A stretch of 64,000 nt of DNA. Source: a bacterium. GTDB taxonomy: Bacteria > Armatimonadota > UBA5829. The notes under the pieces were generated by a model. The model ran no database searches. It had not been told where the DNA came from and worked only from the letters and a program-made list of their open reading frames with translations. Of the stretch, positions 5,191-46,494 are shown piece after piece. Location: positions 124,001 through 188,000 of the forward strand of contig JAJFVF010000004.1 of the NCBI GenBank assembly GCA_021371935.1, given 5' to 3'. Every line of letters begins with the position of its first letter. The first letter of the stretch is position 1. The translations under genes and the position numbers were made by a program.

Positions 5191-6051
5191 TTAAGGTAGT
5201 ATCTTTATCTTCGCAACGATGTCGGGGCGGGTGACACCCTGTCCGACTTCTGACCACACCAGCCAGCCGGTTTTGAACCGGGTTTTCTGCTCAATGGGAT
5301 CGGTTTTCAGAGATTCGCGGATTGGAAACTTCCCAATCTCCTCATCAGGAACGATGAGTATTTCGTTCATCTCCGCTGAAGCGGTGAGCATGATGCCGCC
5401 CGTGCCGTAGTTCTTGATGACGCCCTTGGTTCGCAGTTCCGCTCTCGTCTCCGGGTCGAGGTCCCAGTCACGCATGTCATTGAAACGGCGACCTCGCATG
5501 ACGATGTATTTTACTGTGAGTTCCAGATCCTCGAGGATGGATATCCCTTCGTTCAGAGCGTCGTCAGTGAGTTTTCCGCCTGTGACCTCTATTGTGTTAG
5601 CGGTAGGCACTCCAGCCGATATGACCGTGATCGTCCGTCTGTCCATCTCCTTGCGTATCTCGGCGGCGGCCGATGTCTGGATATCCATAAGGGTGCCGAT
5701 ATTGCCATGCTTCAACATCGAGATATCAACCATAGGCGCGGAGTGAATGCGATGGGTCGGAAACTCTATTTCATCCTTTCCGAGTTCCTGCTCACGAGCT
5801 TCGCCTTCAGTGCTTATCCAGTAAGCCTTGACCTTGGGTTTCTTCTGGTAGACCGGCCTTTCGCCTTTAGGCAGATCGTGCTGGGTAAGGAGCAGGGATG
5901 TAATTTCCTTGCGCTTTATCTCCTGCTCAATTGGATCGGCGATGGCAGCAGCAAGAGCACGCATTCCATCAGGAGAATCCAGAGCCTCGCTCATCAGGCG
6001 GGCCATGGTATCCATATATTCCTGGCTATGTACATCGATTATCGTTTCCAC
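5191..6051 (-). CDS. Major capsid protein
   Basis: A 286-residue protein in the standard place after protease, scaffold and decoration genes. A central region (HSAPMVDISMLKHGNIGTL, residues about 104-122) and the later VKYIVMRGRRFNDMRDW segment, followed by YGTGGIMLTASAEMN and a final receptor-like TGWLVWSEVGQGV, match the order seen in HK97-fold major capsid proteins of myophages. The N-terminal 60 residues are helical and charged and could include a part removed by the prohead protease, although I see no separate delta domain. The protein forms the icosahedral shell. The assignment rests on pattern and synteny. Confidence 0.82.
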   Translation of the reverse strand: METIIDVHSQEYMDTMARLMSEALDSPDGMRALAAAIADPIEQEIKRKEITSLLLTQHDLPKGERPVYQKKPKVKAYWISTEGEAREQELGKDEIEFPTHRIHSAPMVDISMLKHGNIGTLMDIQTSAAAEIRKEMDRRTITVISAGVPTANTIEVTGGKLTDDALNEGISILEDLELTVKYIVMRGRRFNDMRDWDLDPETRAELRTKGVIKNYGTGGIMLTASAEMNEILIVPDEEIGKFPIRESLKTDPIEQKTRFKTGWLVWSEVGQGVTRPDIVAKIKILP

Positions 6052-6063
6052 GTTATCTCCTTC

Positions 6064-6426
6064 CTAGATGAGCAGGCGGAACTTCAATGTCCCGCTGGCG
6101 ACCGATATCGCTCTGGCCACCACAATATCACCGGCTCCGACTCCAGCGGTAAGTTTGCCGCCTGTCGAAACCTTCAGATCATCGTTGACATTGATAGTGC
6201 CTTCGAAGACATCAGTCTCATAAATGCCGCCCATGCACAAGATGCCGGGCATTTCACCGCTCTTATAGTCTTTCACCAGGACTCCGAAAGATTTGGCAGC
6301 AGGATCAGTATTGACGGCAAACAGATCATTACCGACCAGCTTTACGAACTGGCCGAGCTTCCCGTCGCCCTGCAAATACCCGTCTCCGTATGCAAGCCCC
6401 CTGTGAGATGGATTGATAAATGGCAC
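6064..6426 (-). CDS. Capsid decoration/stabilising protein
   Basis: About 120 residues from a GTG start at 6426, chosen because AGGAGGT lies five bases before it. The longer in-frame start would run into the polyprotein gene upstream. The protein is glycine-rich and beta-rich (HRGLAYGDGYLQGDGKLGQ, then a VNTDPAAKSFGVLV segment), like the small head proteins encoded between the protease/scaffold gene and the major capsid gene in many phages. Such proteins bind the outside of the mature shell and stabilise it. The family is not certain, but the position is diagnostic. Confidence 0.65.
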   Translation of the reverse strand: MPFINPSHRGLAYGDGYLQGDGKLGQFVKLVGNDLFAVNTDPAAKSFGVLVKDYKSGEMPGILCMGGIYETDVFEGTINVNDDLKVSTGGKLTAGVGAGDIVVARAISVASGTLKFRLLI

Positions 6427-6436: not shown

Positions 6437-9400
6437 CTACTTTGTGTTCTGATCTTTAGCAAGCCCTATGCGGTCATGGTATGCCGCCATAAAACCTGAC
6501 TTGAGCTTATCTTCAAGGCTTGTTTTGGTATCATCTACATCCAGCGGCCGCACACCCGCATCGGAACGAAGTGCGCCGCTCTCTTTCGAGCTAGCTTTCG
6601 ACTTGCCCTGATCATCGCCGCCTTTTGTCTCACTGCCTTTTTCGGGGCATTCTGGCTTGGCCTGAATCGCCTTGTCGAAGGCAGCCTCAGTCGCAGCGAA
6701 AGCATCATCGGAAAGTTCCGCAAGTCGCCCCAGCTCCTTTTCGCGCTCCTCATTGGATGCAAACATAATGCCCGACTTTTCAAGTTTGGCAATGAGATTC
6801 TGTGCGCGAGTTTTGTTCGCAGCGGCCTTACTTGCCGCTTCAAGTTCCTGAACCTGCTGTTGAAGGTCCAACACCTGCTGCTTGAGCTGCTTGTTCTCGT
6901 CCTCAAGCTCCTTGATGCGGGCCTTGTCGTCTACTGGCGCAGCACCACCCGGAGCGCCTTTCTTTGCAGCATCCTCGTGCTGCTCGTCAATCGTTTTCTT
7001 GTCGTCTTCCAATGGACTGCCTCCTGAACTTGTATGGGTTGCCTCCTGCGAGGCGACTTGTGTTATCCGGGCGTTTTCGTCAGCGCCTTTTCGGTCGAGT
7101 AGACCGAGGCCAGTGAACGTAACGCCATGCAAAATTTCAAAGACCGGCTTGCCCTGATACTCCGCGCCTTTGTACTTGCGAAGATGGATACAATAGTCGT
7201 TCTTGTTTGTCATCATCTTGCCGCAGACGGAGCATTCACCGGCCTCATAGTCACACTCCATCGAGACCTGACTGATGATGCCTTTCTTCATAAGCTTGTA
7301 GGCAAGCGCTGCAGTCGGCGTGTCAGCCACATAGAGTTCGCCAACACATTCGATTCTGCCGCCTGTTTCATCTTCAACGAACTCGGATGCGATGATCCCG
7401 CCGACGATGTCGGTGAGGTCCTGAGAATGTTTGAGGTCGATCTTCTTGTTGATTGCCGTTGTGCAGCGTGTCGAAAGCTCTTCGGGCGTGAAGTGATCGC
7501 CGTTTTTGTTCGTTCCAACCCGGCACATAATGAAGCCGAACTGCGGGTCGCCGGCGTTGGGATTGATGTCTATGGCATCCGCCGAAAGCTGTTCAGAGCC
7601 TGCAATACACACTTCGACTGGTATGGATGTGTGGCAGTTTGCCGGCAGTAGCGCAGCCGCAGTATTGGGAGCGCCGCTGGACTTTGAGGAGATAAACAGC
7701 AGTTCGCGGCCGGTTTTGCCTTCGGTATCTTTGCCGAGGACAATGCCATATTCGACATCCATTCCACGGACACTAACATTGCCGAGCCGCTCGGAGAAGA
7801 TATCGCGGATCTCCTTTTCCGTGGGGAATGCCTTGTCGCGGTAAGACATGATGACCGTTCCATACTTCCCGCGGGCTTCGGTCGCAAGGCTCTCGATGAG
7901 CGAGCGGATGCTGTCACGGTCGTAGTGCGTCCGCGACTGATAGCTTCTGCGATTGTCGTTGAGGAGGGTTTTGTCCGCCCAGCGGTTCATGAGACCCTCG
8001 ACAAAGTGCAGTGAATACTCGTAGTCGTTGTTCGAGAACTGGGTGATGTAAGGTGGGTCTAGGTACAGCACATCCGCGCCGAATTTGCGCACAGCCTCGA
8101 CAGCATCGCCGTGAAATGCCTTGCACTCTTGACCGTTATCGAAGACGAGCTTATTGAGTTGGTTCGCGTAACGTTTGAAGCTTTCGACCATGCTTGCTAC
8201 TGGGATGTTGACGAGCTGGTTTTCTTTGATGCCTGCATCAGCCTCCATCTCGGAGTCATAGTCCAATTCTGATTTGAGATTGAGCTTCGAGCGGTGGAAC
8301 TGCCCGAACATGGATTTGGCTTTCACGGTATTTCCGAGCACAGCAAGCGCGAGGTCTTTTTTGTAGCCGGGCAGTTTCTGGATATTCGCCCATACCTGAT
8401 CCAGCCACGCGAGCACTTTCTTGGTGTAGTAGTAGCCGTGGAAGTTGTCGACTATGAATGTCCCTGCGGATGCATTGGACGAAAGAATTCTCTCGATATC
8501 TTCATCGGTCAATGTCTCGTGTGAGTTCTCGACCACAGCCCGGGCGATATGGTATGGATAGAGCAGCAGGTCGTTCGCGATGACCTGCATGCCCTTGCGC
8601 TTGAAGTGGTATGCAACATTCGCGCCGCCGGAGAATGCATCGAGGAGGGTCTTTGCCTCCTTCGGCACCTGCCGCTCTATCCAGCCGAGCATCATGAACT
8701 TGTTGCCCATGAAGCCCGTGACTCGAACCGGATCTTCACCAGCCTGGCATGAAAGCAGGTCCACCTCATCAGCAAGTGTTGCATCTGCCAGAGCCTGCAT
8801 GTTTTCTTCGATCCGGACCTCGGCCTCTGACACCGGTTGTTCGTGGTCCTTTATCCACTCCTTGGCCTTGTCCATAGTCCAGCCATCAGGATTCTGTTCA
8901 GATTTTTTGGCAAATCGATATGCCTGCAGGACCGTTGACTTCGGATCATGAGCTTCGGGAATGAACTCATCTTTCAGTCTGCCGATAACAATGGAGACAC
9001 CATCAACGCCGTCGAGAGCCTTACGCCTGAAGCTCTCCGGTTCGAACTGCTTAGGATCGCGAACACGATATCGGATCTCGTTTTCAGTCTCGTCCCATAT
9101 CGCCTGTGCCTGCATCTGAGAACATGCCGGGCAAAACCCTGCCGATTGCTTCAACTTACCCGACCGGGAACACACGAACAGCCGCTCAATAGCCTCCGAG
9201 TTCTCGGAATGTCGGGAAGAGATATTGTAGTGGTGCTGCTGTGAACTGATCCGGCTTTCCATTCCATTTGCTGAGATGATGTCTTTCATCTCGGCTTCAT
9301 TCGGATACGCATGGTCGCGATATGATATGAGCCAGTTCGGAATATGCTTCGCATTCGCAAGAAACGTCGAGAAGAATTCGCCGGCGTTAGCTTTTGTTAC

Positions 9401-10285
9401 CGTCTTATGGTCCGTCTCGTAGTGCTTTGTTTTGGAGTCGTCGACTATTGTAAGGCCGTCCCAGTAGGTCATAAGTCCTTCGGTAAAGTGATATGCCTTC
9501 TCATAATTAGTCGTAGAAAATTCTGTGGCGTAGGGAGGATCGAAATAGGCAAGGTCTACTTTGGCATCCTTCACGGCATCATTGATATCCTTGCAGGATG
9601 CCTTGCACTCTTTGCCATTATCGAAGATGAGTGCGTTGATACGCGCAACATTATTTGAAAAGCGTTCCTTGAACTCATCGGGCGTGTCCTGGCGTTTGCC
9701 ATAATCCGTAGATGAGGAAAAGTGCCCGAAACCGCCCTTGCCACCGACACAAGCCTTTCCCAGAGCAAATAATGCGATGTCCTTCTTATAGCCTGAAAGC
9801 GCATCGATATTCGCTCGAATGTTGTCGACGATGGCGTGGACACCATCAGCGAAAAACAACCCCTTGAAGTTGTCACGAACGAACGTGCCAGCCTTGGAAT
9901 TGTTCGCAAGAAGCGCATCAAGCTCTTCCTGATCGATCCTAACGGAGTTGTTTTCAATGATAGCCCGAGCGGCGTGGTAGCTGTAGTGAAGCCGGTCATT
10001 TGCAACAACGCGCAGCCCCTTGGTCTTATACATATACGCCACGACCGCCGAACCGGAAAATGCGTCGAGGACTGAGCCAATGTCTTCCGGTGTATGCTTC
10101 CATATCCAGTCGACAAGCTTCTGCTTTGAACCTATGTAATTAGTTACGTACTTCGGCCGCTCGTCCGACGGCAATTCCTCCGTGACAAGCTCCGCTGCCT
10201 GTGCGAGAAGAATCTCAAGGTGGCGCGAAGCATCCGTCTCAAGTAGAAATGCCAGCCGATCAAGGTCCGTGGCGAAAAGCTGCAT
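6437..10285 (-). CDS. Virion polyprotein: two adenine DNA methylase domains, protease and scaffold
   Basis: A 1282-residue protein of unusual make-up. Residues 45-370 are a D12-class (Dam-like) adenine methyltransferase domain with the motif YIGSKQKLVDW, the motif I segment LDAFSGSAVVAYMY and the catalytic YFDPPYATEF near residue 250. Residues 373-390 carry a CxxxG...CPAC cluster. Residues 395-500 contain a YRVRDPKQF...GWTMDKAKEW domain of the kind found in XkdF-like phage proteins. A second methylase domain follows at about 520-880 (LDAFSGGANVAYHF; YLDPPYITQF near 745). Residues 900-1110 look like a capsid maturation protease region with a conserved DLKHSQDLTD segment and a four-Cys knuckle (ECSVCGKM). 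A coiled coil and charged tail complete it, as in scaffolds. It starts 40 bases below promoter copy A, with GGAG before the ATG. Both DPPY sites appear intact. Confidence 0.8.
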   Translation of the reverse strand: MQLFATDLDRLAFLLETDASRHLEILLAQAAELVTEELPSDERPKYVTNYIGSKQKLVDWIWKHTPEDIGSVLDAFSGSAVVAYMYKTKGLRVVANDRLHYSYHAARAIIENNSVRIDQEELDALLANNSKAGTFVRDNFKGLFFADGVHAIVDNIRANIDALSGYKKDIALFALGKACVGGKGGFGHFSSSTDYGKRQDTPDEFKERFSNNVARINALIFDNGKECKASCKDINDAVKDAKVDLAYFDPPYATEFSTTNYEKAYHFTEGLMTYWDGLTIVDDSKTKHYETDHKTVTKANAGEFFSTFLANAKHIPNWLISYRDHAYPNEAEMKDIISANGMESRISSQQHHYNISSRHSENSEAIERLFVCSRSGKLKQSAGFCPACSQMQAQAIWDETENEIRYRVRDPKQFEPESFRRKALDGVDGVSIVIGRLKDEFIPEAHDPKSTVLQAYRFAKKSEQNPDGWTMDKAKEWIKDHEQPVSEAEVRIEENMQALADATLADEVDLLSCQAGEDPVRVTGFMGNKFMMLGWIERQVPKEAKTLLDAFSGGANVAYHFKRKGMQVIANDLLLYPYHIARAVVENSHETLTDEDIERILSSNASAGTFIVDNFHGYYYTKKVLAWLDQVWANIQKLPGYKKDLALAVLGNTVKAKSMFGQFHRSKLNLKSELDYDSEMEADAGIKENQLVNIPVASMVESFKRYANQLNKLVFDNGQECKAFHGDAVEAVRKFGADVLYLDPPYITQFSNNDYEYSLHFVEGLMNRWADKTLLNDNRRSYQSRTHYDRDSIRSLIESLATEARGKYGTVIMSYRDKAFPTEKEIRDIFSERLGNVSVRGMDVEYGIVLGKDTEGKTGRELLFISSKSSGAPNTAAALLPANCHTSIPVEVCIAGSEQLSADAIDINPNAGDPQFGFIMCRVGTNKNGDHFTPEELSTRCTTAINKKIDLKHSQDLTDIVGGIIASEFVEDETGGRIECVGELYVADTPTAALAYKLMKKGIISQVSMECDYEAGECSVCGKMMTNKNDYCIHLRKYKGAEYQGKPVFEILHGVTFTGLGLLDRKGADENARITQVASQEATHTSSGGSPLEDDKKTIDEQHEDAAKKGAPGGAAPVDDKARIKELEDENKQLKQQVLDLQQQVQELEAASKAAANKTRAQNLIAKLEKSGIMFASNEEREKELGRLAELSDDAFAATEAAFDKAIQAKPECPEKGSETKGGDDQGKSKASSKESGALRSDAGVRPLDVDDTKTSLEDKLKSGFMAAYHDRIGLAKDQNTK

Positions 10286-10637: not shown

Positions 10638-11222
10638 TTACATTCCCATCTCGCCCATTTCCAGGACATGGGTGAACATCATGTGGTGCATCCTAGTCTG
10701 CATTAGAACTGTATCAAGCACCTGTCTGGTGGTCTTGTTGTCGGTGTTCTTGATGAGCCACACATACTTTGGAATCGACTGCGCCTCTATATCCCGGCCG
10801 ATTTCGTAAGCTTGCCTTACCGACTCCGATTTCTTCACTGGCGGCGTCTCGACCCCAGGTGCTATGCCGTAGGCTTTGAACAACCCTCCTATCCAGGTTA
10901 TGTGGTTCTGCTCCTGGGGAATGATCATCATATACGGCATTCTGACGTGATACTTGTCCTCATCCGCTGTATATTGGGCTTGAGACAGCTTCTCAAGCGC
11001 GAAGATGGCTTTCAGCCTGGCTATCCACTCGGCGCTCTTTGGGTAAGGCAGTTTATCAGGTATCTGGCCGTTCCATCCATTCGGAATTCTCCCGGTTCCG
11101 CCGCACATAGGGCACATCATTCCGCCGCCACCCATCATGCCTCCGCCCATTTGTGCTGAGGTTGATGTGCACAGCAAGACTATCGCCAAACCAATCGCGG
11201 CTGTGGTTGTGTGTTGTCGCAT
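10638..11222 (-). CDS. Exported ferritin-like domain protein
   Basis: A 194-residue protein with a signal peptide (MRQHTTTAAIGLAIVLLC, cleavage probably after TSAQ), then a glycine- and methionine-rich stretch with a CPMC pair, then a helical domain. The segment YMMIIPQEQNHITWIGGLF carries the ExxH pattern of ferritin-like or DUF2202-like four-helix proteins, and a second helix holds RMHHMMFTHVLEM. Such proteins may bind iron or other metals outside the cytoplasm. The gene has its own ribosome site (GGAGGAC) and wide gaps on both sides, so it looks like an accessory cargo gene among the late genes rather than a virion part. The metal and the role are inference. Confidence 0.68.
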   Translation of the reverse strand: MRQHTTTAAIGLAIVLLCTSTSAQMGGGMMGGGGMMCPMCGGTGRIPNGWNGQIPDKLPYPKSAEWIARLKAIFALEKLSQAQYTADEDKYHVRMPYMMIIPQEQNHITWIGGLFKAYGIAPGVETPPVKKSESVRQAYEIGRDIEAQSIPKYVWLIKNTDNKTTRQVLDTVLMQTRMHHMMFTHVLEMGEMGM

Positions 11223-11346: not shown

Positions 11347-11685
11347 TCAATCCGGAAGATTGATTTTCTGGAGTACGGAGGCCGCGCAGGCTTCCGCCGA
11401 CGAGTACTCGTCGATCTCGATTATCTCCCCACGCATCCCAATATACGGCGACATCGTCGCCCGATGATATTCGAGGAAGTCTTCAGGCAGCGACTTGATA
11501 TCATTTTCTACGAGCCGGTTAATGATCCAGTCGGCATCTTCGGCAAAATCGTCGTTGCCAGGCAAGTATTCCATGATGATATCGAGACCAGGTCCGGGTC
11601 CTTGCACCCAGACACCGATTGGTTCGTAATGCGGATCGGTGTCACGGTCACGCAGGGCATACTCTATCATATACCTAAGCCGCAT
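11347..11685 (-). CDS. Small acidic protein following the MuF polyprotein, possible immunity-type gene
   Basis: About 112 residues from ATG 11685 (MRLRYMIEYALRDRD), chosen because AGAGG lies just upstream. The longer frame reads into the previous gene. It is acidic and contains VWVQGPGPGLDIIMEYL and DFLEYHRATMSPYIGM. I know no family for it. It overlaps the preceding 160-residue gene by 11 bases, so both are probably translated with the MuF polyprotein. A decayed second copy lies at 10460-10630. Small acidic proteins in this place, with relics next to them, recall immunity genes of polymorphic toxin loci, but nothing in the sequence proves that role. Confidence 0.6.
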   Translation of the reverse strand: MRLRYMIEYALRDRDTDPHYEPIGVWVQGPGPGLDIIMEYLPGNDDFAEDADWIINRLVENDIKSLPEDFLEYHRATMSPYIGMRGEIIEIDEYSSAEACAASVLQKINLPD

Positions 11686-12157
11686 TCCATTCCTCTGCGA
11701 TCCGCACATGCTCCGCAAGAAGCTGAGCGTCAATCTGCTCAAACATAGCTCTGTTCTCAGCCTTGTAATGCTGCCAGTCTTTCCAATCCGCGACCATCTC
11801 AACATCCTGTGCAGGAAACAGCAGTTCTATATGAAACTCACGCCCACGATCATCAGTTAAGTCGATAAGATATCCATCGTTCTGACCCCAATCCACAACT
11901 TTGATAGTGTGAGCATATTGCCAGCCATTGTTGTAACCAGCCGATTTGAATAACAGCCAGAAATCAGTCTTTGTTACGTTGCCTGCAATATCAAAATGCG
12001 GAGCTATACGTGTGACAATGTAGCTGTCTATAAGGCCAAAGCCGAGTGGTTCGTCATTACCCTCTCGCATTTCCATACAGGAGCCAGTCGTATTAAATTC
12101 ATCAAAGAGCTTCTGCAGCTTTGCCTTTTCACTTGCTATGAACTCATTTAAAATCAT
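11675..12157 (-). CDS. Protein translationally coupled to the MuF polyprotein, candidate immunity protein
   Basis: A 160-residue, mostly acidic protein starting MILNEFIASEKAKLQKLFDE. Its ATG overlaps the stop codon of the giant MuF gene as ATGA, the tightest possible coupling. The centre contains aromatic-rich strands (TKTDFWLLFKSAGYNNGW) and the C-terminus is a Trp- and Ala-rich helix. I do not recognise the family. In temperate phages the C-terminal parts of MuF proteins may be toxins, and the next gene then encodes the cognate immunity protein. This gene is in the right place and of the right size for that, but the function is inference. Confidence 0.6.
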   Translation of the reverse strand: MILNEFIASEKAKLQKLFDEFNTTGSCMEMREGNDEPLGFGLIDSYIVTRIAPHFDIAGNVTKTDFWLLFKSAGYNNGWQYAHTIKVVDWGQNDGYLIDLTDDRGREFHIELLFPAQDVEMVADWKDWQHYKAENRAMFEQIDAQLLAEHVRIAEEWNAA

Positions 12158-15100
12158 ATGTCTATTACCAGTTCCTCGATTTTACGTCCATCCGGCATGG
12201 TTGATATGCCATGTTTCTTGAATACATCAAGAACGCTTTTCCTTTCGCCCTGACCGTGAACCACAATGTTTTCCAAGTTATCTAAAAGCGTAATCGAATA
12301 CTTGAAGATGGTCTCGTTGCTGGAGTTGCGCGAGAAGTTCTTCCATGTTGCTGAGTCGCTCCCGCGATTACTCGAAACATAGTCGTCCTTGACCTTGCCG
12401 AATGCGTCGTGATTGTAGCTTACCGCGTCCATCCGCCTGAGGAGCCGTTTCTTGAAGTAGAAACCGACATCTGTTGAATATGCAGATGGCGATTTCTTTA
12501 TGCGGGTGAATACGTAGCTTGCGCCGCCACTGTTCATATCGGACTCGGGTGACATTCCACCAGGCATGACACCCGCTCTGAGTTTCTCAACAGTGCTTAT
12601 CATAGCCCCATTATTCTCAAGTACCGTATCAAGAAACTCGCCTATGCTCTCGCCGTTCGTGAGACGATGATACAAGCTGTAGCCTTTCATCTGCTTCTCG
12701 ATGTCGGCATCTGATATATCGAAGCGATACTGATGCCTGTAACCTCCGGCGATCTTCGCGTCTTTGAAACCGAGCTGATATTCACCGACGGGATCATATC
12801 CCGGCATTTTGGTGATGTCGGAGACACCGAGACGCTGCTCCCAGAAACCGCGCATCGCTTGGACACGTTCGGTCTTCGTTGCGTTGCGCCCGTCAAGACC
12901 GGAGATCATACGAGCATAATCAGGCTCGCGGTCGGCTTTCGTAACATAAGCTTGCTTCGTAAGATACATTATCTCAGCATCTTCGGCGTCGGCTATGTTT
13001 GTTTTCAGGCCGAGCTTTTCAATGTTGTCGAGCGCCCTGTCCAGGCTCTTTGCGTCCGGCCTCTCGTCAACGATAATCTCGAGTTCTCCGCGCTGCGCAT
13101 AATGGTTCTTCTCTGACCACGGCCGATAGACCGCTCTGACACCATCACCGAAATCCACTTCATACTGCTCCCCGTCATTCATAGACCTGCCTCGAAACAT
13201 CGAACTGTTACCGACAGACTCTTTGTCGATGGAAAGCTCACCTTTTGCAAGTGTCCGCTTTTCCATAAGCACCTTGGTCTTGCGGACTGTAAAATCGATA
13301 TCCTTACTCTCACCTTTTTTGGGCAGGCTTTTCCGAAGATATGTCTCGAACTTCCCGGCAACGGGTTTTCTTTCCCTGACAGCTTCCTGTATCCTCTCTA
13401 TCCAGTCGACGTAGGCTGTCGCCATCTCGCGCACATCCGGATCGTCGGATTTGGCAAGTTTCTTCAGCGCAGGAAGATGCTTGTTCAGTTTATCTACTTT
13501 GGACTTGTTATAGTTGCCATCCTGCGAATGATAGTTTATGGTCTTCACTGCAAGAAGGATATCATCAGCGAACTCGTCCTCAGCAAGCGGCTCACCGACT
13601 TTGACGACGCTTACCTGACGATTGGATTTCCTGAGTGCGGGTAGGATCTTGGCTTCAGATTCGGGCCGAAGCTTCATCTTTACAACAGTGCGGGTCTTGC
13701 CTTTTACTGTCTCCGTGAAAACGAGGGCGGTCTGATCTTCAATATCGAATTCGTCTATTGGCAGCGATTTGCCCTGCCAGCCGAGAATACGAGCCTCCTC
13801 AATAATCTGCTCCTCGGCTTTACCGATACGGACTACTGTTTGCGCTTCTGCGATATCCTCGAACTTGTAACCCTTCTTACCGAGGATATCGGAGTAGAAT
13901 GACTCGAAATCACTGCGCATGTTGTGCTTACGGGCAAGGGCCAGGTCGTAGAATGCCTTTTTCTTCAGTTCGTCGCCAGCGAATCGGCCCTCGACATACG
14001 GACAGATCAGAGTGAGGTAATCATCGTCAGATATCTTCTCCACCTCGCGAATGCAGCGCAGAGTGACCGACGGATCGACCGTCACTTTTCCCTGCTTTAC
14101 CGCACGAAACAGAGTGTTGTAGAACGGCTCACTCTCCCCGCAGGCTCCGTTCGGGTGGTAGTCGATGGAGAGCTTGTCCGAGCCAAGAAACTTGAAGAGT
14201 TGAGCCTTATCTATACCGTAGACCTTGCCGTCCTTTGTCCGCAGGAACTGCTTTGCATGGCCGTCATGGTTTGAGATAAGCCAGTCGATCACGTGCTCAC
14301 GCTGGACCTGCGCTATATCATCCGCTGAAAGCTCAGTAATGTCGAAGCTGGAGAAGTCGGACTTTGCCGCCAGCTTACCGCGCCACATCTGAATGGAACC
14401 TGTTCGACCATTGAGCTGGATCGTTCTGACTTCCATTGCATCCGGATCTATAAGACGCCCTATCTTGTATGCGGCTTCTTCGCCGTGCGCGATGAAATCG
14501 TCCGTTGATTCGCCCACCGGCTTGAAAAGCCACTTATCGCTGTTCTCATCGAGCCAGAACTCCTTCTCATGCGCCCCGCCGACTTTGGCCTTACCGACAT
14601 ACTTGAACTTCTCGGGCTTGCCTTTCTCAGTCCAAGCTGCATCGACTGCGTCAAACTCGGAAGTCTTCTTTGTAAATGTGTTCGGTGTCGCGACTGTGAC
14701 AGGCTGTGGGGCGACCTGTGGCTCCGGTGTAGGGACTGCCTTCGGCTGCGCTGCCTTGCCGGACTTACCCAGGTGTTTCTCGGCCCACTTTGCATGCTTC
14801 GCCTCGATACCTGCCTGAGCTGCCGATACCTTCGGGGTGTCCGTCTCCGTGAACAGGGTGACCAGTTCGTCTTTCGACGCCCACTGCCAGTGCTTGACTT
14901 TGGTCTGCTTTGCAAGGTCCTTTAGTTCCCCGGACTTTATCGCCGAGACCTGCTGGGCGAACGTAAGCTTCTTTAGCACGATCTCCTTTGCGTGCTGTTC
15001 GAGAACCGATGCCGGCAGTCCCAACTCTTTCGCCAGTTCCGCATCGGCGGCTTTCACTGAATCCAGGAATGATTGGTATTGCGTGGGCGAGGATGGCATC

Positions 15101-16734
15101 ACCACTTGCGATACCGTATCCTTGAGAGCCTGTTCTGCTTTCTTAAGCGCCTCCTGTTTTGCCGCGTCCAGAGCCTGCTGCTTGGCCTGTTCAGCCATCT
15201 GCTGACCCGCGGACTTCTCAAGAGCTTTGACGAGCTGCTCTTTGTTCTTCAGGGGCGGTATGCCATGTTTCTGCTTGGCAGCGATCAGGGCTTTGCCGGC
15301 AATACCGGAGTGGTTCACACCCGGCTCAAGACCGTCCAGCATATCGATGACTTCGCTCTTGGTGAGGTTCAGCGACACACCGTGCTGCTTGGCTATATCC
15401 TTGAGTTGGACCATTGTGAGACCGGAAAGATCGGTCTGAGGCGCAGCGTTCTTTGCGGCCTCCTCCAGAGCTTTGACTTGCTTGATCACCGCCTGCTTTT
15501 CGGCCAGCAGTGTCGCCAACTCGTCTTTACTCCGTAGCGCCGCGATGTTGTATTGCTTGATCTTCGCCTGGAGCGCAGCGCCGGAAAGATCACCGTGATT
15601 AACTCCCGGCTCGACACCATCCAGCAGCTTGATAAAATCAGACTTGGTGCGGGCGACGGCTATGCCGTTCTGTTTCGCCAGCGTCTGAAGCTGCTTTACG
15701 GTGAGTGTAGAAAGGTCGCCAATGTCGCCGGACTCGAATGCGCCCTTGAGCTGCTTTTCTTCTTCAATCTTCTGTTTTGCCTGAAGTTCTATTGCCTGCG
15801 GAGGGAGAATACATGCATTCTGACCAGGTGCGGCAGTCGCGCCAAGATATCCTCCACAGATAACCAGCGGCCAGGCAACGACATTCGTGCACCGGCAGTT
15901 GGGATGCGCTGGCTGATTGGGAAAGTGGTCCGTATCGAATACTTTGCCATCGAGACTGCCGCAGACCGGGCACATGCGCTCGTCTTCCATCGCCATCCAC
16001 TCGAGCTTCTGTATACCGACCTCTTTGTGAAACTTGATGCGACCCTGGTTGTGAGCGCGCAGGACTTCGGTGCGGGCAATCATCTCCATCCGATACTGCG
16101 CCTTGGAGAACACCTTGCTTCCGGCATTGCGAAACGATTCCTTGTCCTCAACGACTGTGCCGAGATCACGGACAATATCGTCAGCACCTTTGCCCGTGGC
16201 AATACCGGAAAGGATCGTACGCTTGATACCGTCTGAAAGCTCCCGATGCACATCGCCGGCAAGTACGAGGTTGTAGTTGGCCATGAAATCGAGGGCATCA
16301 GTGTCGATAAGGGTGAAGACGGATGTGGTGAGCTTGTCAATTCCGTCCGACGTAAGGTCACGGTAAAACGGCATCTGAGCAGCCGCGAACTCTCCGATGC
16401 CGTGATATACGCCGGAGTGAAACGATGCGCGGGAAGACTTGCGGAACATAAGAGTTTGCTCTTTCTTGAGCGTCTTCATCACGTCGCCTATCTCTGCATC
16501 CAGCTTCTCCAAGCCCTTTACTGCGGCGAGCTTGTTATCGGGTAATGAGCCGAGGCTTTTATAGGCCAGGAGCGCTCTGCTTACCTGTTCCTGCGCGGTC
16601 TGAAGGGACAGCGTGAGTTCATGCGCAACCTGCTCGGAGTAGAGGTCACGGGCAAGAAGGCTCTTCTGCGTTGCCTCTCGGATCGCCTGAGCTTGAGAGG
16701 TGGTATCGGCGATAGCGCACATTGATGCGTGCAT
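12154..16734 (-). CDS. Giant MuF-domain head polyprotein with DNA-binding repeats and a kinase-like domain
   Basis: About 1526 residues from the ATG at 16734, 12 bases after the portal gene and preceded by GAGG. Residues about 100-290 form the MuF (SPP1 gp7-like) minor head domain, ending with the typical CPVCGSLDGKVF...HPNCRC cluster. Residues 335-505 hold at least two similar SAP-like repeats, each ending DG(V/L)EPGVNH. A third shorter unit follows. Residues 690-950 resemble a PI3/4-kinase or HipA-like fold, with WLISNHDGHAKQFL and a later YGIDKAQLF segment in the places of the catalytic and metal-binding loops. The last 600 residues are unrecognised and finish with a compact region (SSNETIFKYSITLLDNLENI) that might be an effector domain. 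MuF proteins enter the capsid, so extra domains could be delivered with the DNA. Confidence 0.78.
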   Translation of the reverse strand: MHASMCAIADTTSQAQAIREATQKSLLARDLYSEQVAHELTLSLQTAQEQVSRALLAYKSLGSLPDNKLAAVKGLEKLDAEIGDVMKTLKKEQTLMFRKSSRASFHSGVYHGIGEFAAAQMPFYRDLTSDGIDKLTTSVFTLIDTDALDFMANYNLVLAGDVHRELSDGIKRTILSGIATGKGADDIVRDLGTVVEDKESFRNAGSKVFSKAQYRMEMIARTEVLRAHNQGRIKFHKEVGIQKLEWMAMEDERMCPVCGSLDGKVFDTDHFPNQPAHPNCRCTNVVAWPLVICGGYLGATAAPGQNACILPPQAIELQAKQKIEEEKQLKGAFESGDIGDLSTLTVKQLQTLAKQNGIAVARTKSDFIKLLDGVEPGVNHGDLSGAALQAKIKQYNIAALRSKDELATLLAEKQAVIKQVKALEEAAKNAAPQTDLSGLTMVQLKDIAKQHGVSLNLTKSEVIDMLDGLEPGVNHSGIAGKALIAAKQKHGIPPLKNKEQLVKALEKSAGQQMAEQAKQQALDAAKQEALKKAEQALKDTVSQVVMPSSPTQYQSFLDSVKAADAELAKELGLPASVLEQHAKEIVLKKLTFAQQVSAIKSGELKDLAKQTKVKHWQWASKDELVTLFTETDTPKVSAAQAGIEAKHAKWAEKHLGKSGKAAQPKAVPTPEPQVAPQPVTVATPNTFTKKTSEFDAVDAAWTEKGKPEKFKYVGKAKVGGAHEKEFWLDENSDKWLFKPVGESTDDFIAHGEEAAYKIGRLIDPDAMEVRTIQLNGRTGSIQMWRGKLAAKSDFSSFDITELSADDIAQVQREHVIDWLISNHDGHAKQFLRTKDGKVYGIDKAQLFKFLGSDKLSIDYHPNGACGESEPFYNTLFRAVKQGKVTVDPSVTLRCIREVEKISDDDYLTLICPYVEGRFAGDELKKKAFYDLALARKHNMRSDFESFYSDILGKKGYKFEDIAEAQTVVRIGKAEEQIIEEARILGWQGKSLPIDEFDIEDQTALVFTETVKGKTRTVVKMKLRPESEAKILPALRKSNRQVSVVKVGEPLAEDEFADDILLAVKTINYHSQDGNYNKSKVDKLNKHLPALKKLAKSDDPDVREMATAYVDWIERIQEAVRERKPVAGKFETYLRKSLPKKGESKDIDFTVRKTKVLMEKRTLAKGELSIDKESVGNSSMFRGRSMNDGEQYEVDFGDGVRAVYRPWSEKNHYAQRGELEIIVDERPDAKSLDRALDNIEKLGLKTNIADAEDAEIMYLTKQAYVTKADREPDYARMISGLDGRNATKTERVQAMRGFWEQRLGVSDITKMPGYDPVGEYQLGFKDAKIAGGYRHQYRFDISDADIEKQMKGYSLYHRLTNGESIGEFLDTVLENNGAMISTVEKLRAGVMPGGMSPESDMNSGGASYVFTRIKKSPSAYSTDVGFYFKKRLLRRMDAVSYNHDAFGKVKDDYVSSNRGSDSATWKNFSRNSSNETIFKYSITLLDNLENIVVHGQGERKSVLDVFKKHGISTMPDGRKIEELVIDI

Positions 16735-16745
16735 TATCCTCGCCC

Positions 16746-18278
16746 TCAACCTGTCTTGCGACCGAAGAAACGGCATGCCGGGGAATCGAAGGTTGTCTCG
16801 GCCTGTGTGACTCCACAGCGGTTGTGCTCCTCGCCGAAGTAGGCACATAAGTCGCACATCTCGCCGACACCGGCGCTGGAGTATAGGGCTGCCTGCGATT
16901 GCACGTCCGGTCGATTCTTTGTCGGATCGAGGCCAAGCATCTGCTGCGCCGTCTCGATGCTCATTATTCCAGCCACAACCATATCCACAATGGGCTTGAC
17001 CTGCTTTTCGTCGAGGAGATCGACCGACTTGTCCTCGTGCTGCCGGTTGGCCGTTTCAGTATCCGGATCGAGGTCCATTTTGAGCTGCAGAGACGACCGA
17101 CTTATGAGCTTGCGGTCGTATAGCTCGATGAGGAGCTTCTTGAAATCGACAGCGTCCGTGGGATCGAGGTCGTTGAAGACGAACTGGACGCTCATTCCTT
17201 GGTGCCCGGCTATCTCAAGCCAGTCGTTGTATATCCAGTCGAGGATGGTACGCGCAGCATGCTTTATCTCCCGGATCATGATGAGCATCTTTTGCATGGA
17301 GACCGACGCTGTAGCAAAGTTAGGACCGTCGCCGGCAACCAGAGACCGCGAAAGCCCCAGCGCGACGACTATGTCTTCCTTTACATCCTTGACTTTGTCC
17401 TCAGTGTTAAGAACCTGTCCCTCCGTGCCGTGGGTCTCGACCGTCACATAGAACGGCACGACCAGGCCGCTCTTCATGTCCATCTTGTTGACCATGTCGC
17501 GGGTCTGTTCGAGCATCTTCTGGTCGGGCATCACCATTTTCTGGCCGAACGCACCACCGACCTTAATCAGTCTGAACGGCGTGGCCCAACGTTTAGCGAT
17601 GGCCTGCTCGGCTCTGCGGTAGTCTCTAAGCAGTTCGATGGACTGGAAAGCCGGAAGCACAAGCGAATTGCCGCGCGGAGAGAATGCCGGAGCGTCCCAT
17701 TTGAGGTGCAGCGTCTGCTCGACGGGTAGCGCCAATCCGTCACCAGCGGTCGGGCTGTCTTCAGGAAACTGTTGAACCTCTACAAGCTGTCCCTGAGCAT
17801 ATTTCACCTTTATGGATACCGGGTTTACACAAGTGACTTCCTCAAAGTCCTTGCCGTCTTTGGTGTATCGCTTGAACCCGACCGCATCGCCCTTCACAAG
17901 GAGTTGCAGGATCATATCCTTTACGAACTCGGAGACGCCGAGCCTATTGGCCAGATCGTTTGCTTCGTCCTTGACTGTATCATCGTCGCTCGTGATCCTT
18001 ATCTCATCTCCTACAGCGAACGTCCGCCAGGAGTTGATGCAGTTTTTAACGAGCGGTTCTTCGACATAGTACTCCCAGGCTTTCTTAGCACGCTCTTCCC
18101 AGGTCTTTGGAATCGCACAATCATCGGGATTGACGCGGGCGAACACAGCCGAATCCAGCATGGCCGCTGTCGCCATAGGAGTGATGACTATGCCTTGTGC
18201 CTGCGTGTCGTGTTCGTCGGGTATGGCTGCCTGGCTCCGGGGTTTTCTTGAGTGTGATTTTCGACTGCGGTTTTCCAC
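16746..18278 (-). CDS. Phage portal protein
   Basis: About 510 residues if translation starts at the GTG at 18278, which has AGAGGT four bases before it. An in-frame ATG at 18332 lacks a ribosome site. The protein shows the order expected of portal proteins: an N-terminal lead, AWEYYVEEPLVKNCINSW, a long helical stem with FRLIKVGGAFGQKM, then VALGLSRSLVAGDGPNFATA and MIREIKHAARTILDW. It forms the dodecameric ring at the capsid vertex through which the large terminase pumps DNA. The C-terminus has a Cys-rich end (MCDLCAYFGEEHNRCG), unusual for portals and possibly a zinc site. It is the first gene behind promoter copy B. Confidence 0.86.
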   Translation of the reverse strand: MENRSRKSHSRKPRSQAAIPDEHDTQAQGIVITPMATAAMLDSAVFARVNPDDCAIPKTWEERAKKAWEYYVEEPLVKNCINSWRTFAVGDEIRITSDDDTVKDEANDLANRLGVSEFVKDMILQLLVKGDAVGFKRYTKDGKDFEEVTCVNPVSIKVKYAQGQLVEVQQFPEDSPTAGDGLALPVEQTLHLKWDAPAFSPRGNSLVLPAFQSIELLRDYRRAEQAIAKRWATPFRLIKVGGAFGQKMVMPDQKMLEQTRDMVNKMDMKSGLVVPFYVTVETHGTEGQVLNTEDKVKDVKEDIVVALGLSRSLVAGDGPNFATASVSMQKMLIMIREIKHAARTILDWIYNDWLEIAGHQGMSVQFVFNDLDPTDAVDFKKLLIELYDRKLISRSSLQLKMDLDPDTETANRQHEDKSVDLLDEKQVKPIVDMVVAGIMSIETAQQMLGLDPTKNRPDVQSQAALYSSAGVGEMCDLCAYFGEEHNRCGVTQAETTFDSPACRFFGRKTG

Positions 18279-18665
18279 GTTGACCTCTACGTGCAGTTTT
18301 GCCGCGCCTATATAGCGCCAGGAGGCATGCACTCGCGCAACATCGCGCGAGAAGACGCCTCTACTTAGTTATTTACTAGCGACTGCGCGCAAGTGTCGGA
18401 ACGATCTTCGCAAGGAGCATCACCTCGGCGCTGTTCACAGAAGCCGGGGTGCTACTTCTAAGCATCCTGAAACAACTGACTTGCCGAGTGATTGCCACGC
18501 TTACCGCTCGTTCGTAGACATCAGTATTCAGGCCGATTAGGCCGAAAAGCCCGTCTTAAATGCTGGTATTTGTCGAATCATATAAGTAGCATGAGCCGTG
18601 GCATGAACATCATGGCAGGAAATGAAGCGGAAAGCGGTCCTGACTAAAGCGCAGAGGTGACAAGC
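18279..18665. other. Intergenic regulatory region between portal and plus-strand membrane protein genes
   Basis: The portal leader lies at the left. It holds the ribosome site and a hairpin at 18332-18351, with 7-bp arms CTCGCGC and GCGCGAG around a six-base loop. Promoter copy B follows at 18358-18402. To the right, up to 18665, I see no gene. A TATAAG hexamer at 18581-18586 could serve the plus-strand pair, but no good -35 box accompanies it. The AGAGGTG ribosome site of the plus-strand gene ends the region. Confidence 0.6.
18358..18402 (-). promoter_or_regulatory. Prophage promoter motif, copy B
   Basis: Minus-strand CGACACT (18398-18392) and TAGTAAATAAC (18378-18368) with a 13-base spacer. 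The spacer here (TGCGCGCAGTCGC) differs strongly from the other three copies while both boxes are unchanged, which indicates that the boxes are what is selected. It points at the portal gene about 80 bases downstream. Confidence 0.72.
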
Positions 18666-19221: not shown

Positions 19222-20748
19222 TCAAAAGAAGACTGGATCAGTTAGCACCGGAATGACGCAGACTGTCTCTTCGGTCAACTGATCCAAGCTTCTCTGCTCT
19301 CGCACGAGCATCGCGCAGCGCACAGCGTCGATGATGTGATCGTTGCCCTTTGAGTAGATCACGTTACCGTTTGTAAGCGTATAGGTATGAGTAGTGAACT
19401 GGTCTTCTATCTCGAGATCATCGAATGGAAGTATCATCTGCCTGCGCTGCAGTAATCCTGATATGAAACTGGTCATCAGTTCCTTCGTTCGCTTTTTGAT
19501 CTCCCGTCCATCGCGGACGGCAAGCGTCGTCATACCCCCAAAGTCGTATCCGTAGAGTCTGCCTTCAAGCTGCAGTGGCTTATACTTATCAAGCGTCAGT
19601 AGCTCCTGTACAACCGCGAGGCCGTTACCGCCGTTATCTACACCTATCCCGACTGGCGTGAAATACCTTTCCAGTAGGGAAATCGTCTGAGCAATGTGAG
19701 GGTAAGAGACGTGTTCCATGTGGATTCGCAGCACAAGCTTCAAGATCGAGCGATCCCCAACTTCCATCTCCTGGAACACAACAATTTCGGTCGGATCGTT
19801 GGTATAACCCAAGTCGCCGCCTATCCAGAACATGCCGGTCTGTGGGATCATGTTAAGGAGCATTTCCAGCCGGTCGTAAGATTCCTCTTCGGTCGCACAG
19901 TCGCGCATGTCATCGCCGCATATCGCAACCTTTAGATACTCCGGCATTTCCTGACGGCAGAAGTTCAAATGCTCGACATTGAATGCGCCGTAGGACGGCT
20001 TACCATGTTCGCCTGCGACCTCATGATGCCAACCCGCTGTGTCGCGTCCACCATAGAACTCGAGAAGCTCATTTTCGCGATCCTTACTCCAGTCTGGGTT
20101 TATCCAAGACGGCCATCTGAACACCTCAAACTGTGGCGACATTGTCAGCCGGTAGTAAGTAGTGTTTCGCAGGCCATTAGGAGTTGAGTAGATGCGCAAG
20201 CGTCCACCGGCCTTGAGGCATTGCCTCAGTGCTTTCCATGCTTTTTCTGTGAGCCATGCGCCTTCATCGACCCATACTCGCTCGACATGCAGCGAGCGAA
20301 ATGCGTCGCCGTAGGCACCGGCAGGTCGGAAGTAAAGGATCGCACCGTTTGTGAACTCCAGCCTGAAATACGGCTTGCGAGTAATTTTGGGTTTGCCATA
20401 TTTCGTGAGGGCAATGCTTCTCATAAGCTCATCGTTGGTATCGAGTTGAAACTCTATCTCCTCGATCAAGGTATCCAGATGCCCCTGGTGCGGAGCGGCG
20501 ATGAGTCCTTGACCACCGCGAGTGGTGAAGGCGAAGTGCAGCGCATCAGTTGTGAGCACAATACTCTTGCCGACATCGCGTCCGTCGAGGTGAACGATGT
20601 TCTTTTCATCGCAGTGCATATCCTTGACCTGGTGTGGCCAATAGGCGCGCGCGGAACCGTCCCGATTGTGGAGATACTTCTCTCCCCAAAGCACCGGGTC
20701 TCGCAAAGACGTTCCCAGTCTCTCTTCTTCCGATGTTATCTCAACCAA
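19222..20748 (-). CDS. terL: Terminase large subunit
   Basis: A 508-residue packaging motor. The ATPase part has a Walker A-like GRDVGKS near residue 60 and a Walker B with following catalytic Glu (VERVWVDEGAWL near 155). The C-terminal RNase H-like nuclease shows GGDLGYTNDPTEIVV (first Asp), VGIGVDNGGNGLAVV (second acidic residue) and NDHIIDAVRCAML (third Asp). It cuts concatemeric phage DNA and drives it through the portal using ATP. A small-subunit-like gene stands 2 kb upstream, separated by the tyrosine recombinase cassette, and the portal gene is separated by the plus-strand membrane/XRE pair. All catalytic residues I look for are present. Confidence 0.9.
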   Translation of the reverse strand: MVEITSEEERLGTSLRDPVLWGEKYLHNRDGSARAYWPHQVKDMHCDEKNIVHLDGRDVGKSIVLTTDALHFAFTTRGGQGLIAAPHQGHLDTLIEEIEFQLDTNDELMRSIALTKYGKPKITRKPYFRLEFTNGAILYFRPAGAYGDAFRSLHVERVWVDEGAWLTEKAWKALRQCLKAGGRLRIYSTPNGLRNTTYYRLTMSPQFEVFRWPSWINPDWSKDRENELLEFYGGRDTAGWHHEVAGEHGKPSYGAFNVEHLNFCRQEMPEYLKVAICGDDMRDCATEEESYDRLEMLLNMIPQTGMFWIGGDLGYTNDPTEIVVFQEMEVGDRSILKLVLRIHMEHVSYPHIAQTISLLERYFTPVGIGVDNGGNGLAVVQELLTLDKYKPLQLEGRLYGYDFGGMTTLAVRDGREIKKRTKELMTSFISGLLQRRQMILPFDDLEIEDQFTTHTYTLTNGNVIYSKGNDHIIDAVRCAMLVREQRSLDQLTEETVCVIPVLTDPVFF

Positions 20749-20854
20749 TTGTTTTCCTCCGCATTTTTTCGCACATTCAAGGCAAACACCCTTGACTTCA
20801 CACTAAACCTGAGCGTGAATGTGAATACAAAACACAACCACTGGAGGTAGTGAA
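20749..20854 (+). promoter_or_regulatory. Divergent promoter region of the recombinase pair and terminase
   Basis: TTGACT at 20792-20797 with TGAATG 18 bases further is a candidate plus-strand promoter for the recombinase genes. The GGAGG ribosome site at about 20843 precedes a TTG start. The repeated GTGAAT hexamers at 20815-20826 could be an operator. None of this is strong evidence. Confidence 0.35.
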
Positions 20855-21250
20855 TTGGAACAAAAGACACTGCACGAGGCCATCGAGGAACACCTCGAAT
20901 ATCTTAAAAGCCAAGGCAAGAGCGAACGCACTCTGTATACTTACGGCAAAGACTTTGAACAGATCGAAGCCTACTTCGGACCTGATAGAAAGCTCACGTC
21001 AATTCTTATTCCGCACGTTTCCGGCTTCCTCAAATCCGATGCGCTGCTCAAAATGCACGGCGGTAAAGACCGCTCAGAAATCACGGTCAAGAAGACCATT
21101 CGCGTCTTCCGAATGTTCCTCATATGGGCAAAGGAACAGGACTACATCGCCAAGCTCCCGCTTCCAAAAGACACACCCATGGGCCGCAGCCTCAAGACAC
21201 AACCGGAGGTGCAAAGTGCCGAACCCGATCCGGCTGCTGCAACCGAGTAA
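20855..21250 (+). CDS. Stand-alone SAM-like (core-binding) domain protein of the tyrosine recombinase family
   Basis: A 131-residue protein starting at a TTG (GGAGG seven bases upstream). Its sequence EHLEYLKSQGKSERTLYTY and the later VKKTIRVFRMFLIWAKEQD form the four-helix, phage-integrase N-terminal domain that clasps the core DNA site, but the protein ends without a catalytic domain. The following gene overlaps it by 35 bases and encodes a complete recombinase with its own, different N-terminal domain. It is therefore not simply the broken start of that enzyme. It may bind the same site and regulate or assist recombination. That idea is inference. Confidence 0.68.
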   Translation: MEQKTLHEAIEEHLEYLKSQGKSERTLYTYGKDFEQIEAYFGPDRKLTSILIPHVSGFLKSDALLKMHGGKDRSEITVKKTIRVFRMFLIWAKEQDYIAKLPLPKDTPMGRSLKTQPEVQSAEPDPAAATE

Positions 21251-22133
21251 CAGCATCGAACTGGCGATAGACAGCTTCGCGGTAAGGCTCCGGGCGCAGG
21301 ATCGCTCGGAGCTTACTATCTCCGCTTACATGCGCGACCTGCACTGCTTTGCTCGCGCGCTGCCGGATACCAGCATCAGTAATATCACACCAGCAATGAT
21401 AGATGCTGCACTTACCGATCCTATCGTAGCCTGCTTGGAGAATGGCTCGCAAAAGTCACCAGCGACGATGTATCGTTTGAAAGCCTCTCTTCGTGCATTC
21501 TTCGCCTGGGCAACTGACACTGGTTTGGTAAACTCAAATCCGGCCAGGTCGATTAAATCCAAGCGGCTCTCTCGCAAGCCCCCAAAGTTTCTCACTGAAC
21601 ACGAGAAGCGCAGGCTCCTCAAGGAAGCCCATGATCGGACGAACCCACTTGCCAGGCGCGACAGTGTCATTCTTGAGCTTTTCCTCGGCACTGGCATTCG
21701 CATCGCAGAACTTGTGAGTCTCAACATCGACGATGTCGACCTCGAAGGCAAACATATCTATATAACGGGCAAAGGCGGCATTCCACAGACCAAGTTTCTG
21801 AAATCATCCCTACGTACGCTTCTGCGAGACTACCTCAAAGAGCGCCGCCGATTGACCAGTTCCGAAATCACCGCGCTGTTCATTTCCTCTCGCGGAACAA
21901 GGATATGCTGCAGACAGATTGCCCAGCGCCTTGCCTACTGGCTCGGCAAGGCCGGAATCCAGAAGAACGTCACACCGCATGGTCTACGGCACACGTTCGC
22001 TACGCATCTCTATGCCGCCACCTCCGATCTGGAACTTGTAAAACGTGCCCTCGATCACCTCTGCGTCTCCAGCACCGAAATCTACACGCATCTTGTGGAC
22101 AACGCACTCGAAGATGCGATAGAGCGACTATGA
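21216..22133 (+). CDS. Tyrosine site-specific recombinase (XerC/D-like integrase)
   Basis: About 305 residues from a GTG at 21216 with GGAGGT five bases upstream, inside the end of the preceding gene. The N-terminal SAM-like domain (IELAIDSFAVRLRAQDRSEL) is followed by the catalytic domain: Arg in GTGIRIAELVSL, the beta-hairpin Lys in GKGGIPQTKFL, HGLRHTFATHL (His-x-x-Arg), LDHLCVSSTEIYTHL with the third His and the nucleophilic Tyr. All six catalytic positions are visible. Size and features are XerC/XerD-like rather than lambda-Int-like (no arm-binding domain). It is a second recombination system beside the serine recombinase at 38.1 kb and could resolve multimers or move this 2-kb cassette. 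Confidence 0.88.
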   Translation: MPNPIRLLQPSNSIELAIDSFAVRLRAQDRSELTISAYMRDLHCFARALPDTSISNITPAMIDAALTDPIVACLENGSQKSPATMYRLKASLRAFFAWATDTGLVNSNPARSIKSKRLSRKPPKFLTEHEKRRLLKEAHDRTNPLARRDSVILELFLGTGIRIAELVSLNIDDVDLEGKHIYITGKGGIPQTKFLKSSLRTLLRDYLKERRRLTSSEITALFISSRGTRICCRQIAQRLAYWLGKAGIQKNVTPHGLRHTFATHLYAATSDLELVKRALDHLCVSSTEIYTHLVDNALEDAIERL

Positions 22134-37123: not shown

Positions 37124-37530
37124 GCGAGTCACGCGAAGGGCTAAATCCTGAATTTGCGGCAAAACTTACGCTCTTTGAAAAGAAGCTGGCCACAAACGGC
37201 ATCAAGGTAATTCTTACAGCGGGTTATCGCTCTATAGCCGAACAGAACAGGCTTTATGCGCAGGGCAGAACCAAGCCCGGCAAGAAAGTGACAAACGCCC
37301 GCGGTGGGAACAGTTGGCACAACTATGGGCTGGCCGCTGATTATGCATTCGTTATAAATGGCAAAGTGACCTGGGATGGTCCATGGGACTTGTTCGGTCG
37401 TACAGCTCGATCTTGCGGGCTTGAGTGGGGTGGTAATTTCAAGAGCATAATCGACCGGCCACATTTACAGTGGACTCAAGGCAAGACGCTCGCGCAGATG
37501 CGCAACGCCAGCACCGTGAAGAAAAAGTAA
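37120..37530 (+). CDS. Endolysin, M15-family L-alanyl-D-glutamate or D-Ala-D-Ala peptidase
   Basis: A 136-residue cell-wall peptidase. The zinc-binding motifs are SWHNYGLAADYAFV (SxHxxGxAxD) near residues 66-79 and DRPHLQW (HxxW) near 112-118. An upstream LTAGYRSIAEQNRLYAQGR segment is the usual substrate-binding loop of the M15C group, which includes T5 and Listeria phage endolysins. It lacks a signal peptide and a separate cell-wall-binding domain, so release presumably needs a holin that I cannot identify here. It is coupled to the 66-residue gene in front of it. Confidence 0.87.
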   Translation: MSESREGLNPEFAAKLTLFEKKLATNGIKVILTAGYRSIAEQNRLYAQGRTKPGKKVTNARGGNSWHNYGLAADYAFVINGKVTWDGPWDLFGRTARSCGLEWGGNFKSIIDRPHLQWTQGKTLAQMRNASTVKKK

Positions 37531-37601
37531 GGTACTACTTCGGTGTCATCTTCCGCTTGTTTTCCAACCTTTCGCTCGGATGTTATGGTGAGGTAAGGAT
37601 C

Positions 37602-45804: not shown

Positions 45805-45805
45805 G

Positions 45806-46399: not shown

Positions 46400-46443
46400 C
46401 AATGGAATAGGCTAATTGATATTGGCTCATAACTAAACAGATG

Positions 46444-46468
46444 AACCCGCGACACAATGTCGCGGGTT
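46444..46468 (+). terminator. Strong hairpin before hsdR
   Basis: AACCCGCGACA and TGTCGCGGGTT form an 11-bp perfect stem around a CAA loop. It is not followed by a T-run. It separates the modification part of the locus from the restriction gene and could dampen or delay hsdR expression, which would be useful when the locus enters a new host. The GGAGGT ribosome site of hsdR starts 17 bases later. Confidence 0.5.
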
Positions 46469-46494
46469 GTGTCCTTCACTCTTGGAGGTAAAAT

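Follow-up and report, generated by a model that had tools for sequence, protein, structure and literature searches.

A prophage gene joining two adenine methylase domains to a predicted prohead protease and scaffold may couple DNA modification to head assembly

We analysed a window of 64,000 nucleotides from an Armatimonadota genome of 3.5 Mb (GenBank assembly GCA_021371935.1, contig JAJFVF010000004.1, positions 124,001 to 188,000 of the forward strand). Here we report a fusion gene of a contractile-tail prophage (6437..10285, minus strand), located between the genes for the MuF minor head protein and the capsid, which joins methylase 1, a linker, methylase 2, a predicted prohead protease and a scaffold in one chain. 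The methylases are probably built into the phage particle, from which they may be injected along with the DNA for its protection. The complete reading, in which one gene gives two products and the methylases enter the procapsid, stay there, are ejected with the DNA and protect it, is given an even chance on the evidence below.

The initial annotation had described a single 1282-codon frame with two D12-class methylase domains carrying intact DPPY motifs, an XkdF-like segment, a protease-like region and a coiled-coil scaffold, and all of these except the XkdF label stood up to the analysis. The frame runs from an ATG at 10285 to 6437, encodes 1282 amino acids and has zero internal stops. The Pfam D12 family (PF02086) matches the protein twice with a total E=4e-44, and both domains pass its curated cut-off separately in a whole-genome search. 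Domain 1 comprises residues 45-375 (9161..10153, minus strand; DPPY at residues 249-252) and domain 2 residues 515-870 (7676..8743, minus strand; DPPY at residues 743-746). An alignment of 20 two-methylase relatives shows no variation in the S-adenosylmethionine (SAM) motif I or the DPPY of either domain, which is better evidence for methylase 2 than a motif count by a narrow pattern. Sequence searches returned no useful solved structure for the fusion protein; a predicted model of residues 1-882, with a moderate mean predicted local distance difference test score of 67, reliable in the domain cores and poor in the linker, has E. coli Dam with DNA as its top match (4rtj, Foldseek E=8e-6). The linker domain, residues 392-505 (8771..9112, minus strand), occurs only in a subset of the two-methylase forms. 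It gave nothing above the cut-off in Pfam, nothing convincing in PHROG and zero matches in 50,697 phage genomes, and the XkdF identity was dropped.

The assemblin-fold prohead protease is assigned to residues 915-1080 (7046..7543, minus strand) from its fold match and invariant residues. By sequence the region is a weak match to Peptidase_S78 (E=0.0017 on its own, under the Pfam cut-off). In the model of residues 866-1282, a beta-rich domain is predicted with confidence. Foldseek alone found no significant match for it; VIA-align ranked T4 gp21 first (5jbl, Z 11.0, root-mean-square deviation 2.6, 126 residues), followed by herpesvirus assemblins at Z about 6-10. His953 and Ser1008, the candidate catalytic residues, are invariant as far as phage G gp19 and a Gordonia phage protease, and a zinc-type motif of Cys1018, Cys1021, Cys1032 and His1034 (CxxC...CxH) is equally invariant in both. 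The protease is thus predicted to be of the assemblin/gp21 type, with T4 gp21 as the closest fold.

The last 191 residues, with a predicted 51-residue helix, shorter helices and a conserved C-terminal motif, fit what is expected of a scaffold in the model. They can also be read as a nested gene with a coiled coil (6437..7012, minus strand), starting from a TTG at 7012 with an internal Shine-Dalgarno (SD) sequence AGGAGG (7020..7025, minus strand) 7 nucleotides ahead of it. This start codon is that of residue 1092, right behind the protease, which is Met, Val or Leu in the relatives, is nearly always coded ATG, GTG or TTG there and is preceded by AGGAGG to AAGGAGGT. In a codon alignment, 28 of 34 sequences combine a start codon at this column with an SD of 6 nucleotides or longer; the next-best column reached 11% at the 6-nucleotide threshold and 22% at the 5-nucleotide threshold, and synonymous shuffling gave a maximum of 45% at any column and 24% at the residue-1092 column. 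The same alignment contained no conserved SD-preceded start before the protease or before methylase 2. Four-nucleotide SD matches at residues 272 and 766 were rejected as a by-product of an invariant EGLM peptide. The SD of the main start is 4 nucleotides long in nearly all relatives, that of the scaffold start 6-8 and that of the capsid gene mostly 5-8. In phage lambda, the Nu3 scaffold starts in frame within the gene of the C protease, and the simplest reading of the present gene is a similar layout, in which the free scaffold would be abundant and the long chain scarce. We consider it highly probable, from the conservation of the internal start, that the gene yields the long chain and a separate scaffold. 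Because a conserved start with an SD is lacking ahead of the protease, the protease would reach the procapsid only in fusion with a methylase.

The N-terminal peptide, residues 1-19 (MQLFATDLDRLAFLLETDA; 10229..10285, minus strand), is a candidate capsid-targeting sequence with an (L/I)xE site after E16. All of 32 intact N-termini, the one-methylase and very divergent forms included, have F13, L15 and E16 and either L or I at position 14, and conservation is 0.83 in residues 1-19 against 0.63 in the adjoining linker (residues 20-44). The internal proteins of T4 enter the prohead by means of N-terminal propeptides of 10-20 residues, which gp21 removes after Glu (PMC9026906, PMC5694885), and a sequence near the start of gp21 itself fits the gp21 cleavage logo (PMC9026906). 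The F-(L/I)-L-E peptide resembles such a T4 targeting and cleavage site, a likeness that is only suggestive, given how often (L/I)xE occurs in other head proteins; for the same reason, protease cleavage sites in the linkers were left unassigned. Only two conserved (L/I)xE sites occur in the fusion, the N-terminal one and one within the methylase core.

Relatives were sought in viral contigs and in one genome per species. The raw locus counts contain some contigs more than once; after removal of duplicates, the fusion is present in about 90 distinct proteins. The initial annotation had proposed a search for the same fusion in other phages, and it does recur, in a two-methylase form or with just the first methylase, in prophages from several phyla. 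The contigs are assigned to Armatimonadota (7 of 291 genomes), Desulfobacteria and relatives, Acidobacteriota, Phycisphaerae, Ectothiorhodospira and others, and include finished chromosomes. The same-family genome G010 and JARYME010000042 contain a protein of equal length and equal identity to the query. Complete frames show three architectures, namely two methylases with the linker domain, two without it, and one methylase; domain 1 is always kept and domain 2 is missing in several lineages. All intact protease-scaffolds found in this family carry a methylase. The few methylase-less frames look broken, and most have their methylase part immediately upstream, in a different frame (L035, L132, L148, L150). 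Cultured lysogens among the carriers include Desulfofustis glycolicus DSM 9705. The chromosome of Desulfosarcina alkanivorans carries two prophages of the family (L056, L066), one single-methylase and one two-methylase.

Pairwise ratios of non-synonymous to synonymous substitution (dN/dS), with several pairs near saturation at synonymous sites, were 0.03-0.13 in domain 1 and 0.03-0.09 in domain 2, compared with 0.006-0.08 in the protease and 0.09-0.34 in the scaffold. These values indicate strong purifying selection on both methylases, similar to that on the protease, and most scaffold values are higher. The two methylase domains share 37% identity and form adjacent groups in a maximum-likelihood tree, separate from restriction-modification relatives, as would be expected of an internal duplication. 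The one-methylase forms are scattered at more than one place, as would be expected of repeated loss of domain 2. Both readings are provisional, since the tree has a midpoint root and some long branches. In phages and plasmids, the fusion methylases are most closely related to the C-terminal half of AlwI-type enzymes with two domains and to a solo methylase beside a DpnII-family endonuclease; they thus resemble type II restriction-modification enzymes, and DNA adenine methylation is predicted. A free-standing methylase-1 homologue (L065:931-1962, 343 amino acids, ~69% identical) groups within domain 1 and lies upstream of terminase, portal and MuF genes on a phage-like contig of a Bacteroidales metagenome-assembled genome. 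Another close methylase-1 module (L033:9755-11671) lies inside a late gene near a tail-terminator-like gene; its contig belongs to an unrelated phage with other terminase, capsid and tape-measure genes, and is either a real mosaic or a metagenome chimera.

From these features we infer the following course of events. The weak main start would give a low-copy methylase-methylase-protease-scaffold chain and the strong internal start a free scaffold in high copy, with which the chain co-assembles. Each long chain would enter the procapsid by way of its scaffold tail, perhaps aided by the N-terminal targeting peptide. A protein with protease and scaffold parts enters the procapsid, and therefore the fused methylases must go along; this argument of the initial annotation is supported, and is strengthened by the N-terminal peptide and by the lack of a conserved start before the protease. 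Entry of the methylases is accordingly a well-supported inference, which we hold to be likely. The gp21-like protease would then cleave the scaffold and the linkers, and the folded methylase domains (about 40 kDa each) would be retained inside the shell because they are too large for its pores. Finally, they would be ejected with the DNA and would methylate the incoming DNA, or its first daughter strands, before host restriction. Foreign enzymes fused to IPIII of T4 or to its targeting sequence are packaged in the heads at 20-200 copies and delivered to the cell (PMC9026906). For the present methylases, retention in the virion and delivery are judged evenly balanced. For the prophage family as a whole, we tentatively propose, at somewhat less than an even chance, that methylation has been made part of head assembly in many phyla: each protease that enters would bring one or two methylases, the nested start would set the dose, and the enzymes would be delivered as a built-in modification kit.

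Several points weigh against this course of events. The fusion family is known here from sequence alone; nearly all relatives are prophage or metagenome sequences, and the collection of isolated phages contained no full-length member. As a rule, a prohead protease eliminates itself and the scaffold ahead of packaging, and the same digestion might destroy the methylases. Delivery is not obviously needed, because a methylase active in the producing cell would already modify the progeny DNA. Starts without a clear SD may exist ahead of the protease, and (L/I)xE is common in structured proteins, which weakens the suggestive evidence for a targeting peptide.

The main rival to delivery is self-marking before or during packaging, in which the methylases would work inside the producing cell or on the DNA as it enters the procapsid, and would afterwards be destroyed or left behind; the fusion would ensure that late-made DNA is modified at the place of packaging. 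This is in keeping with type II-like methylases with intact motifs, with a weak main start that points to low copy and with the frequent degradation of core proteins by prohead proteases. A free methylase would suffice for such a role, however, as in the stand-alone Bacteroidales relative described above (L065), and yet the fusion is kept family-wide; we regard self-marking as rather unlikely. An improbable alternative is that the fusion is a convenience of expression, which merely co-regulates a late methylase with the head genes: the protease would free the methylase in the cytoplasm for a role that has nothing to do with particles, such as epigenetic control in the lysogen. The linkers on both sides of the methylases are variable, with low conservation (0.45 in residues 376-391 and 0.57 in residues 871-914), as such a polyprotein might have; gene order and a ribosome-binding site would nevertheless be enough for co-regulation, and prohead proteases are expected, from T4 and lambda, to be active only inside the procapsid. 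Still less probable is a structural exaptation, with the methylase folds serving as DNA-binding or volume-filling parts of the head core and catalysis being irrelevant. The absence of domain 2 from several lineages, with domain 1 always kept, would suit it, but the invariance of SAM motif I and DPPY in both domains and the very low dN/dS speak against it, since exaptation usually loses such motifs. An assembly artefact or chimera of separate genes, which nothing favours, is ruled out with near certainty because full-length relatives in one frame occur in independent assemblies and in the finished chromosomes of Desulfosarcina widdelii and D. alkanivorans, with broken frames at a few loci only.

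The order of genes around the fusion, TerL-portal-MuF-fusion-cement-capsid-sheath, is kept among the relatives. In the window, all on the minus strand, these are the terminase large subunit (19222..20748; phrog_2, E=3e-26), the portal protein (16746..18332; phrog_2739, E=3e-64), the MuF minor head protein with a long C-terminal extension (12154..16857; PF04233, E=1e-16; phrog_6577) and, directly after the fusion, a capsid decoration or cement-like protein (6064..6426) that starts with a GTG at 6426 with its own SD and is assigned from a weak match to phrog_673 and from conserved synteny, followed by the major capsid protein (5191..6051; phrog_2522, E=4e-84); a contractile sheath gene lies further downstream. 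The MuF protein has 1567 amino acids, with SAP/Rho-N-like helices and a weak PI3/4-kinase-like stretch (TIGR03843). In the relatives L029, L050, L058, L066 and L067 the MuF match is only about 500-550 amino acids long, and two small genes that follow MuF in the window (11675-12157 and 11347-11805) were likewise not found there. Because they are short or missing in several relatives, the MuF extension and the two small genes may be an accessory cargo or immunity set. Between conserved small genes and the fusion, positions 10638-11222 encode a small Met/Gly-rich, probably secreted protein without a homologue at the listed related loci, and this gene is likely a recent insertion. Elsewhere in the window, a tyrosine recombinase (20850-22133) lies beside the terminase, a large serine recombinase (37470-39631) adjoins a DUF2924 gene, either of these recombinases being a candidate integrase of the prophage, and a C5-cytosine DNA methylase (33082-33906) is in a block with RecD2-like helicase, NrS-1 polymerase-like and AAA_24 genes. 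Type I restriction-modification genes (short HsdS-like, HsdM, HsdS and HsdR; 42490-49701) occupy a stretch of lower G+C content before a tRNA-Pro (52392-52469).

The initial annotation knew of no such fusion, and this holds in part. The searched literature contained no description of a D12 methylase fused to a prohead protease, nor of the full combination, its breadth, the nested scaffold start or the candidate targeting peptide. PHROG 27806 ('DNA methyltransferase', 798 positions), however, holds the single-methylase form: its positions 47-787 match residues 519-1274 of the fusion, that is, methylase, protease and scaffold. Its label names the methylase alone and conceals the capsid protease of a large phage group, an annotation that can now be corrected; the window protein adds a second methylase and the linker domain. 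Enzymes in polyvalent virion proteins are also already known, some of which carry assemblin-like peptidases at their C-termini (Iyer et al. 2017, PMC5512222); an earlier example of the fusion may be present in the figures of that paper. Beyond the initial annotation, the present analysis contributes the conserved internal scaffold start, the N-terminal F-(L/I)-L-E peptide and the breadth of the family. It makes the coupling of DNA modification to head assembly, and the delivery of methylases, directly testable, and suggests a natural design for cargo loading in which a low-copy enzyme-scaffold fusion is diluted by free scaffold from a nested start.

Among known systems, the polyvalent virion proteins and P1 DarB come closest as precedents. 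The fusion is like the polyvalent proteins in that several unrelated enzyme domains share one chain of the virion module, with an assemblin-like peptidase in its C-terminal part. It is unlike them in ending in a scaffold and in having, as its enzymes, two type II-like D12 domains and neither a SWI2/SNF2 helicase nor a zincin domain. Its peptidase lies in the C-terminal third and is followed by about 200 further residues. Among distant relatives of the protease, which also include matches in mycobacteriophages, phage G gp19 is homologous, shares these His, Ser and Cys residues with the fusion and is encoded between the portal and capsid-region genes; neither gp19 (300 amino acids) nor Gordonia phage Stormageddon gp13 has a methylase domain. 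The two D12 domains per chain recall the AlwI-type IIS methylases, and the phi1605 enzyme has a C-terminal domain that shares 37% identity with domain 1 and 30% with domain 2. Unlike AlwI-type enzymes, which combine one N-terminal-type and one C-terminal-type domain, both fusion domains significantly match the C-terminal type only, and a scan of flanking genes found no type II endonuclease, of the AlwI type or otherwise. AlwI systems have an asymmetric site, whose two strands are methylated by the two joined enzymes (PMC4081073). The fusion has an in-frame internal ribosome-binding site and start ahead of the scaffold, like lambda C/Nu3, and T4 gp21 likewise has a second start codon (PMC9026906); both lack methylases, unlike the fusion. 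In P1, the Dar system with DarB is a head-carried methylase for anti-restriction (PMC9024508, PMC5512222), and DarB is a 250 kDa protein with an N-terminal targeting signal, present at about 40 copies in the head (PMC9024508). DarB is a methylase-helicase separate from the protease Pro, whereas the window methylases are covalently joined to protease and scaffold, and the Pfam scan found no DarB-type SWI2/SNF2 helicase domain in the fusion protein. Virion-borne anti-restriction enzymes are thus known as separate proteins, as in P1 Dar and the T4 internal proteins; here, across phyla, the methylases are covalently part of a protease-scaffold that every particle needs.

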